Shown: in pieces, positions 542-28,711 of the stretch
Numbering within the stretch: the stretch's first letter is position 1
Layout of the letters: every line of letters begins with the position of its first letter
Origin: Tissierellia bacterium
GTDB taxonomy: Bacteria; Bacillota; Clostridia; Tissierellales; Tepidimicrobiaceae
Assembly: GCA_012735215.1 (NCBI GenBank)
Contig: JAAYHX010000020.1
Coordinates: 1 to 64,000, forward strand
Direction of reading: 5' to 3'
DNA: 64,000 nucleotides
Position numbers and translations under genes: made by a program
Notes under the pieces: generated by a model
The model's database searches: none
Told to the model about the DNA's origin: nothing
Seen by the model: only the letters and a program-made list of their open reading frames with translations

Positions 542-593
542 ATTTGTCGTCGACCTATAATAGTGCAAAAACCCCTGGAGGTCGACGACAAAT
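542..593. repeat. GTCGTCGA hairpin of CRISPR leader 1
   Basis: A perfect 15-bp inverted repeat (arms 542-556 and 579-593, core TTGTCGTCGACCT) flanks a 22-nt loop and is followed by a run of T. Near-identical and related copies lie at 28666-28711 and 26614-26665. It forms the distal end of the conserved leader. It could be a transcription barrier or a protein-binding palindrome; its role is unknown to me. Confidence 0.8.
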
Positions 594-721
594 TATTTTT
601 TTGCAACAGTGGCTTAATTTCAATAGATACGGGATAAAATGTTATCTAAATATTAAGAAAATGTAACAATTTATCACTTTGACAAAAAAGTGAGAATTTG
701 ATAATATCAAGGTATAGAATG
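545..721 (+). promoter_or_regulatory. CRISPR leader 1 with sigma-A promoter
   Basis: This 177-nt segment is the same length as 28535-28711 (minus strand) and differs from it at only three positions. It ends at the first repeat. It contains TTGACA at 679-684, a 17-nt spacer, and TAATAT at 702-707, so transcription should begin around 714, just before the first repeat. Conservation between two distant copies supports a functional leader. Confidence 0.85.
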
Positions 722-817
722 GTTACTAGACTACCTATAAGGAATTGAAACGTTTTACGACGTATTCTCTGTTTATCATGTTATACAGTTATTAGCCTAC
801 CTGTAAGGAATCAAAAC
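722..817 (+). CRISPR. Mini-CRISPR array 1: repeat, one spacer, degenerate repeat
   Basis: The first 30-nt repeat at 722-751 ends in the ATAAGGAATTGAAAC signature common in clostridial type I-B arrays. One 36-nt spacer follows at 752-787. The second repeat at 788-817 has five mismatches to the first (TAAGGAATCAAAAC end). This is the classic degenerate terminal repeat, or a psi-repeat as in crRNA-like regulators. No cas gene occurs in the window, so the array depends on Cas proteins encoded elsewhere or is a relic. Repeat and spacer lengths and the preceding leader make the call firm; the function is open. Confidence 0.85.
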
Positions 818-864
818 TCTGCTGTAGCAGGAGTAGGTTTTTAATTCATTATCTAATAACAAAT

Positions 865-904
865 AAAAGGATTGAGTTCTGTTTATTTAGAACCCAATCC
901 TTTT
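865..904 (+). terminator. Terminator of mini-CRISPR locus 1
   Basis: GGATTGAGTTCT (869-880) pairs with AGAACCCAATCC (889-900) with one mismatch, and a T run follows. The stem sequence is shared with the hairpin ending the second mini-CRISPR locus (28353-28391), so it belongs to the duplicated unit. Confidence 0.75.
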
Positions 905-3234: not shown

Positions 3235-3864
3235 TTAATCCTCCTCTATCCCATATTTTTTCTTGTAATAGTATACTGCCAGCTGAGTCCTATCCCTTAA
3301 GGACAACTTTTCCAACATATTGGATATGTAGTTTCTTACAGTACCTTCACTTAAGTAGAGCTTTTCTGCAATCTCTTTGTTGTTTAGGCCTTCTGCTACA
3401 AGAAGGAGAATATCATATTCCCTATCAGATAGGTCCAGCTCTATATCCTTTTCTGCATATTTCTTTATTCCTGATACTATCTTGGAGTCAAATACCATGT
3501 TTCCAGCATATACAGCATTGATGGCAGGTATTATGCCCTTAATGTTATATTTGAGTATATAGCCTTTGCAACCTATGGAAAGGGCTTGGGCTATGTATTC
3601 CTGATCTTGGAAGGTAGTTATCAGCAATATTTTAGCTTGGGGATCCTTTCCAAGCATATTTTTTGCAGCCTCTATTCCATTTAGCTTTTCCATCCGAATA
3701 TCCATGAGGATCAGGTCAGGCTTGTGCTTTTCATAGAGGAACACTGCCTCTTCCCCATCATATCCCACAGCTGCTATATCTATTCCATTTGCACTTATGA
3801 TGGTCTTTAGGGATTCTACAACTAGAGGATCATCATCTATAATTATAATTTTCAAATTCATCAT
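3235..3864 (-). CDS. NarL/LuxR-type response regulator
   Basis: The protein has 209 aa: a receiver domain (1-120) with acidic D10-D12 and phospho-acceptor D54 in ILMDIRM, then a LuxR-type helix-turn-helix (about 145-205, with LSDREYDILLLVAEGL and LYLSEGTVRNYISN). Its start overlaps the stop of the sensor kinase by 4 nt (ATGA), so the two are translationally coupled. The probable target is the divergent ABC exporter at 5082-8191. The layout matches B. subtilis LnrK (YfiK), which responds to membrane-active antibiotics, but the inducing signal here is unknown. Confidence 0.9.
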   Translation of the reverse strand: MMNLKIIIIDDDPLVVESLKTIISANGIDIAAVGYDGEEAVFLYEKHKPDLILMDIRMEKLNGIEAAKNMLGKDPQAKILLITTFQDQEYIAQALSIGCKGYILKYNIKGIIPAINAVYAGNMVFDSKIVSGIKKYAEKDIELDLSDREYDILLLVAEGLNNKEIAEKLYLSEGTVRNYISNMLEKLSLRDRTQLAVYYYKKKYGIEED

Positions 3865-4916
3865 CCTTTCATCAGAGTAACATGAACTTTAAAGCCCTTG
3901 TCGTAATTATAGTTGAATAATCCATTGTACTTATGGGCTATTTCCTTTATGGATAGGAGTCCAATGCCTTTTGTATTTTTAATGGATTCTTCATCAAAGT
4001 TACTGCCGTTGTCCTTAATCACTATGGAGTAGAACTTTGGCTGCTCATATAGGGATATTTTCAGCTTATCTGCATTGGAATGTTTAGCACAATTTGAAAT
4101 CCCTTCTTTTACAATTGATAGGATATCGTATTTCATATCGTAGCTTAAATCATCATCAATTTTGTATGCAAGCTCCACATCTATACTTGGCACACTGGCA
4201 CAGAGCTTTTCAATCTGGGCCTTTAAATCCAAGGATTCATTGTATAGGTTGTGAATGCTTTTTCTTATGTCCTCCATTCCCCTTGTTAAGGTTTCCTGAA
4301 GGATATCAAGCCTCTTTATTACCTCTTCTTCCTTGGATATTATTTTCAAGGATTCCACCTGCAGGATACTGCTTGATAAGGTATGGCCTACGGCATCGTG
4401 GAGCTCCTTTGCTATCCTATTTCTTTCAGTGAGTATGGCTATATGTATATTCTTTTCCCGATCCTTTTTCAATTGCTCATTGTACTTTTCCAAAAGGAGG
4501 CTGTCCTCTCTTAGCTTATCCCTAGCTCTTATGTTTTCCTCCAGTATTTCCTTTTGCTTCTCGGTGATTGTAGAAATATAGGCTGCAAATATGGAAAGAA
4601 GCAAATTAATTGGATAAAAGTTGGCAAATATTAGGGGAACAAGAAGTATTGAAAATATGTTGAAATCTGTATATAGGTCATAGAGGATAATTGGGATATA
4701 TAATATGAACAGCTCATGGGATATGGACAATACTACAAAGACCATATATAAAAGGGCTCTTGTCCTCTGGTGGTCTACTAACTCCAATAGGGAGGAGATA
4801 ATAAGGGCTATGAGAAAGAATAAGGGTAAATTCTCATTTGGATAGGCCTTATAGGTATTATATAAGCAAAATACTATTATAAATAGCTTCTCAAGAAACC
4901 TTCTCCTATAGCTCAT
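3861..4916 (-). CDS. NarL-family sensor histidine kinase
   Basis: This 351-aa protein has four to five hydrophobic segments in the first 115 residues with almost no extracellular domain, then a coiled coil (118-160), a HisKA_3 dimerisation domain with H173 in ELHDAVGHTL, and a C-terminal HATPase domain with an N-box-like EGISNCAKH and a KGIGLLSI glycine loop. Short-loop, membrane-embedded sensors of this kind (DesK, LnrJ) usually sense bilayer state or membrane-active compounds. It is co-transcribed with and overlaps the regulator, and is divergent from an ABC exporter. Confidence 0.9.
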   Translation of the reverse strand: MSYRRRFLEKLFIIVFCLYNTYKAYPNENLPLFFLIALIISSLLELVDHQRTRALLYMVFVVLSISHELFILYIPIILYDLYTDFNIFSILLVPLIFANFYPINLLLSIFAAYISTITEKQKEILEENIRARDKLREDSLLLEKYNEQLKKDREKNIHIAILTERNRIAKELHDAVGHTLSSSILQVESLKIISKEEEVIKRLDILQETLTRGMEDIRKSIHNLYNESLDLKAQIEKLCASVPSIDVELAYKIDDDLSYDMKYDILSIVKEGISNCAKHSNADKLKISLYEQPKFYSIVIKDNGSNFDEESIKNTKGIGLLSIKEIAHKYNGLFNYNYDKGFKVHVTLMKG

Positions 4917-28179: not shown

Positions 28180-28362
28180 ATTCATAGTAGAACCTTTAGT
28201 AGTGTAGCCAGCATTACTAACCTCTTTAAGGATAATATGGATATAGCTATGTAGAGCATGAAGACTGTAGATGAAGTAAATGAGAATTCAGAGATCATAG
28301 CATAGACAATTGAGAAGATTATACAATTCCTTAGAAGATATAGAAGTATAAGAAAGGATTGA
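28180..28362 (+). pseudogene. Decayed fragment, possibly a methyl-accepting protein C-terminus
   Basis: One frame reads as a helical, Asn/Ser/Glu-rich stretch (NLFKDNMDIAM, SMKTVDEVNENSEIIA, TIEKIIQFL) interrupted by two TAG codons where CAG or AAG would restore it. Such heptad-like helices resemble the signalling or tail region of methyl-accepting chemotaxis proteins. No start or upstream domain remains. It ends at the hairpin of mini-CRISPR locus 2. The flanking 28019-28179 holds nothing I recognise. Confidence 0.35.
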
Positions 28363-28391
28363 ATTCTATTCAATGTAGAATTCAATCCTTT
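28353..28391 (-). terminator. Terminator of mini-CRISPR locus 2
   Basis: A 16-bp perfect stem (28353-28368 with 28376-28391; GGATTGAATTCT core). It shares AAATAAAAGGATTGA-TTCT with the hairpin that ends locus 1. The T run is better on the plus strand, so it may act in both directions. Confidence 0.65.
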
Positions 28392-28437
28392 TATTTTTGC
28401 CTTTGTCAATAAGATACATCCTACTCCTAACACAGTG

Positions 28438-28534
28438 GAATTAATTCCTTATAGGTAGTCTAGTAACACCCTAAACTCTTTAGGGAAAAAACAAAAAGAA
28501 GACTGTTTCAATTCCTTATAGGTAGTTTAGTAAA
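28438..28534 (-). CRISPR. Mini-CRISPR array 2: repeat, one spacer, degenerate repeat
   Basis: Read on the minus strand, a 30-nt repeat (28534 to 28505) ends in TATAAGGAATTGAAAC and is followed by a 37-nt spacer (28504 to 28468) and a second repeat (28467 to 28438) with 27 of 30 positions like array 1, its last five bases altered to AATTC. The spacer contains the palindrome CCCTAAA-gag-TTTAGGG. The layout equals that of array 1. No cas genes are in the window. Confidence 0.83.
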
Positions 28535-28711
28535 CATTCTATACCTTGATATTATCAAATTCTCAATTTTTTGTCAAAGTGATAAATTGTTACATTTTCT
28601 TAATATTTAGATAATATTTTATCCCGTATCTATTGAAATTAAGCCACTGTTGCAAAAAAATAATTTGTCGTCGACCTCTAGGGGTTTTTGCACTATTATA
28701 GGTCGACGACA
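28535..28711 (-). promoter_or_regulatory. CRISPR leader 2 with sigma-A promoter and GTCGTCGA hairpin
   Basis: This 177-nt segment is the inverted near-copy of 545-721 with three differences. On the minus strand TTGACA (28577-28572), a 17-nt spacer and TAATAT (28554-28549) precede the first repeat by 14 nt. A 12-bp inverted repeat (28666-28677 and 28700-28711) forms its distal end. Confidence 0.83.

Follow-up and report, generated by a model that had tools for sequence, protein, structure and literature searches.

The window analysed here is a 64,000-nucleotide stretch of DNA from a Tissierellia bacterium, and positions 545–904 of its plus strand carry a CRISPR unit with a single spacer. The leader (545–721) is 177 nt in length; it contains the strong, conserved hairpin GTCGTCGACC..GTGCAAAAACCCC..GGTCGACGAC (546–589) at its start and one sigma-70-type promoter (679–707) near its end. 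The promoter, which scored 10/12 in a consensus scan, is composed of TTGACA (679–684), 17 nt and TAATAT (702–707), with a TG preceding the −10 box; it occupies the same position in the array leaders of relatives. Repeat 1 (722–751) is the intact 30-nt sequence GTTACTAGACTACCTATAAGGAATTGAAAC, and its score of 39 bits lies above the gathering score (37) of the Rfam family CRISPR-DR2. It is followed by one 36-nt spacer (752–787) and by the terminal repeat 2 (788–817), which carries five changes and reaches 28.3 bits with CRISPR-DR2. An inverted-repeat terminator (865–904) closes the unit. An earlier note on this DNA had described the 177-nt leader, the promoter, the repeat, the 36-nt spacer, the degenerate second repeat with five changes and the terminator, and each of them was borne out.

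Since contig C9 and the window share their first base, the sequence upstream of position 545 is known for only 544 bases. The window contains the unit from end to end, which shows that it is not a truncated piece of a longer array, as the earlier note had considered it might be. The repeat core was found four times in the window versus 0.03 times expected by chance, and two of the four sites belong to a second one-spacer unit (28,438–28,534, minus strand). The window also gave matches to Rfam LhrC, Spd-sr07 and mir-2796, all of them far below the gathering scores and rejected; the mir-2796 match is the leader hairpin.

The second unit, the other copies in the genome and the leader hairpin had all been overlooked by the earlier note. 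The repeat and the whole unit served as queries in searches of the source genome (1.885 Mb, 98.96% complete, 25 contigs). As a whole, the second unit spans positions 28,353–28,711 of the minus strand. Its leader (28,535–28,711) is identical to 545–721 at 174 of 177 positions; repeat 1 (28,505–28,534) has two changes, the 37-nt spacer (28,468–28,504) is unrelated to that at 752–787, and the terminal repeat (28,438–28,467) is degenerate at its 3′ end, with three changes. The terminator lies at 28,353–28,394. The downstream parts of the two units are much more diverged than their leaders. Their homology begins abruptly and precisely with the hairpin and extends beyond the terminator as far as a common ACTTCTATATCT; the flanking sequences are unrelated.

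Outside the window, C9 contains one five-spacer array (77,310–77,915) with the same repeat, leader layout, hairpin, promoter and terminator. The five repeats at 77,491–77,786 are identical to repeat 1 of the window unit, and its last repeat is likewise degenerate. At C9:97.4–97.8 kb, a degenerate array stands upstream of cas6 and is flanked by two csx1-type genes, and degenerate or one-spacer copies were found at C4:57.4 kb, C1:36.4 kb and C22:0.45 kb; those at C22, C4 and C9:97.4 kb are visibly decaying. In the C1 copy (36.36–36.46 kb, minus strand), a one-spacer unit, the second repeat runs directly into the terminator stem. The arrays at 28.36 kb and C9:77.88 kb are followed by sequence related to the terminator at 865–904. 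Further occurrences of the terminator sequence, AAAGGATTGAGTTCT..AGAACTCAATCCTTT, in the genome are at C9:77,879–77,917, C3:1687–1725 and C24:62,753–62,795, and the copies on C3 and C24 stand after ordinary genes.

The leader is homologous to the array leaders of the family. A pattern search for the hairpin in about 85,000 species genomes gave matches in 16 contigs, including those of Tissierellia, Tepidanaerobacter, Thermosediminibacter, Ammonifex and Geobacillus. In every matched contig with enough following sequence, a CTACCTATRAGGRATTGAAAC-type repeat begins 3′ of the hairpin, and in the array leaders of relatives, those of long arrays included, the repeat core comes about 160–200 nt after the start of the hairpin. 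Of 20 genomes from this family, 14 match the unit. Across the leaders compared (L037–L051 and L056–L082), the 44-nt hairpin has a nearly invariant stem core and the loop GTGCAAAAACCCC, and stands at a near-fixed distance upstream of Firmicutes arrays. In an alignment of 25 sequences, 89.8% of the stem cells are paired and both sides have changed at 5 of 13 pairs, counts that are weakened by the kinship of the sequences. The hairpin possibly has a role in spacer acquisition or in insulation from upstream transcription, and it may help to locate leaders that belong to this repeat family and to study how spacers are acquired. A search of the open-access literature with the hairpin sequence returned no relevant paper among the matches listed.

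Units that combine this leader with one spacer or none also occur in relatives (L073, L061 and L067), and their spacers differ or are absent. In another relative, L041, a csm (III-A) operon is followed by an array with an identical repeat and leader. In Geobacillus thermodenitrificans (L047), positions 3816–4090 carry a second leader and one spacer between two repeats, directly upstream of cas6, and the long array, with its own leader, comes after cas6. This small unit is a better candidate for a CreR-like RNA than the window locus; the 5′ part of its spacer has no seed match of at least 9 nt elsewhere in the 8 kb examined.

Among the stretches read, the cas genes nearest to the unit are located about 95–99 kb away on C9, and the effector operons lie on other contigs. 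The C9 locus (96.0–100 kb) encodes two CARF-HEPN Csx1 proteins and one Cas6 (99,216–99,953). C23 carries a complete I-B operon, cas6-8b-7-5-3-4-1-2, followed by arrays of a different repeat. C20 carries one III-D operon (L086, 7169–15,162) with its own Cas6-type protein and Csx20; the surrounding 20 kb that were read contain no array, and it may borrow crRNAs from scattered arrays. Cas6 was detected by PADLOC and NCBIfam, and was missed here by the family PF10040. The C9 Cas6 is 28–37% identical to the Cas6 proteins that adjoin arrays or repeats of this class at six other loci, whereas the C23 Cas6 matches three of these weakly. Owing to this better match to array-linked Cas6 proteins, the C9 protein is most likely the processing enzyme of the unit; the assignment is not certain, since the csm locus of L041 encodes a Cas6-like protein of another kind. 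The earlier note had called the locus self-contained, which holds for the transcription unit only, since the likely Cas6 is encoded on the same contig, 98 kb off. A search of the source genome for a relative of the L041 csm cas10, run without a positive control, found none. The effector for the crRNA is uncertain, because the I-B operon adjoins another repeat, the III-D operon is without array, and the L041-type cas10 was not found.

The earlier note had proposed searching the spacer against phages, plasmids and the host genome, also with partial seeds of 8–12 nt; in the collections and stretches given below, the spacer has no meaningful match. Against phages and plasmids, the spacer at 752–787 gave only chance-level matches (E of 0.1 or more), as did that of the second unit against phages, and the spacers of the five-spacer array had no match in the phage collection either. 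No exact match to the inner 20 nt of either window spacer, or to the repeat, was present in viral contigs. The 5′ 20–22 nt of both window spacers, allowing up to three mismatches, found only the loci themselves in the self-targeting search. In 119 other genomes of the order, the spacer at 752–787 had one match with three mismatches, and a reversed control gave four. In the window and the cas loci read (157 kb; L052, L054 and L086), its 5′ prefix has no match of at least 8 nt, and its best ungapped identity is no better than that of shuffled spacers; genome-wide, seeds of 8–10 nt are expected many times by chance.

Taken together, these observations indicate that the unit is very probably a solo (orphan) CRISPR array of the CTACCTATAAGGAATTGAAAC repeat family, cut down to its leader, one spacer and a degenerate terminal repeat. 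The repeat family is best read as a type I-B/III-type family that is widespread in the lineage. Repeat 1 is shared with a multi-spacer array, and homologous leaders with the promoter stand before long arrays in relatives. Loci with the same leader and repeat form a graded series in the genome and the family, with five, one or no spacers, which supports the earlier note's own second thought that the locus may be a relic array. A perfect first repeat together with a degenerate terminal repeat is the normal state of array ends. A near-identical sister carries an unrelated spacer, so the window units act like arrays rather than like copies of a single RNA gene. The unit is thus a real but ordinary leftover array, one of several small copies in the genome and its relatives.

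Because the promoter and the first repeat are intact, transcription and Cas6 processing of the unit are plausible on sequence grounds. RNA polymerase would start near position 714, about 7 nt past the −10 box, and the terminator would halt it near 905, so that a single RNA of about 190 nt results. Cas6, most likely the C9 protein, would cut repeat 1 and leave AUUGAAAC plus the spacer; the 3′ part of the crRNA would be trimmed, or would keep the remainder of repeat 2. A trans-encoded effector, either III-D at C20 or I-B at C23, might then load the crRNA as a minor immune memory, or the crRNA might be functionally idle.

As a sub-case of the solo-array reading, the unit could be fully dead, neither transcribed nor processed any longer. 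We regard this as a serious possibility, although the less probable state of the array: the single spacer, the degenerate terminal repeat, the failure to find a cognate csm effector and the visible decay of other copies all fit it, but an intact promoter and repeat 1 speak against it, as does a leader nearly identical to the second unit's, which suggests a recent duplication or conversion, or constraint. In another reading, leader, array and terminator form one dispersible cassette, bounded by hairpin and terminator, that is copied (or copies itself) around the chromosome, after which spacers are gained and lost locally. The exact extent of homology between the two window units, from hairpin to ACTTCTATATCT within unrelated flanks, and the presence of several units per genome point in this direction, and such a cassette would seed new one-spacer arrays around the chromosome. 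However, neither a transposase nor a target-site duplication came to light, nor any intermediate, and ordinary segmental duplication with gene conversion of the leader would look alike; we consider the cassette unlikely.

Least probable is the crRNA-like regulator of CreR or CreA type that the earlier note had put forward, in which one crRNA would direct Cascade to a promoter that it matches in part, so that cas genes or a toxin are repressed: although a repeat, a spacer and a degenerate repeat with their own promoter and terminator have the right form, and a complete I-B effector operon is present in the genome, the unit does not lie beside a cas operon, its spacer lacks a seed match in the loci read and is not conserved in the 119 genomes of the order, and the sister unit carries another spacer behind the same leader. 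Nothing that we found suggests a special gene-regulating RNA at 545–904. The locus calls for caution, as a lone one-spacer mini-CRISPR with promoter and terminator resembles a regulatory RNA, whereas comparison across the genome shows ordinary arrays at differing stages of decay.

Compared with known systems, the unit resembles the CreTA antitoxin RNA CreA (PMC9458426) in having two repeats around one spacer, a degenerate repeat and its own promoter. In CreTA modules, however, divergence is greater in the first repeat (PMC9458426), whereas here repeat 1 has no changes and repeat 2 has five; the linkage to a cas operon is also missing, and no seed match was found in the loci read. Like the CreR autoregulators of cas genes, the unit is a crRNA-like single unit. 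Different from CreR, which targets the cognate cas promoter (PMC12737573, a review), it is not located at a cas operon, and its spacer has no prefix match of at least 8 nt in the cas loci read. Closer are the solo arrays (cited in PMC8616872): the unit has a leader, a genuine repeat of the lineage, 36–37 nt spacers and no adjacent cas genes, with cas genes elsewhere, but it has only one spacer and several near-copies per genome. With the solitary repeats (Racr) and mini-arrays borne by viruses (PMC10651486), it shares a short repeat unit downstream of a promoter; unlike them, it is chromosomal, located between ordinary genes, and preceded by a full leader. The copy at C4:57.4 kb (L027, about 800–960) has one spacer and a promoter, and the stretch around it resembles a decayed prophage. 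It is closer to the Racr and mini-array kind (PMC10651486) than the window unit is, and might represent an RNA anti-CRISPR or a mini-array carried by a phage.
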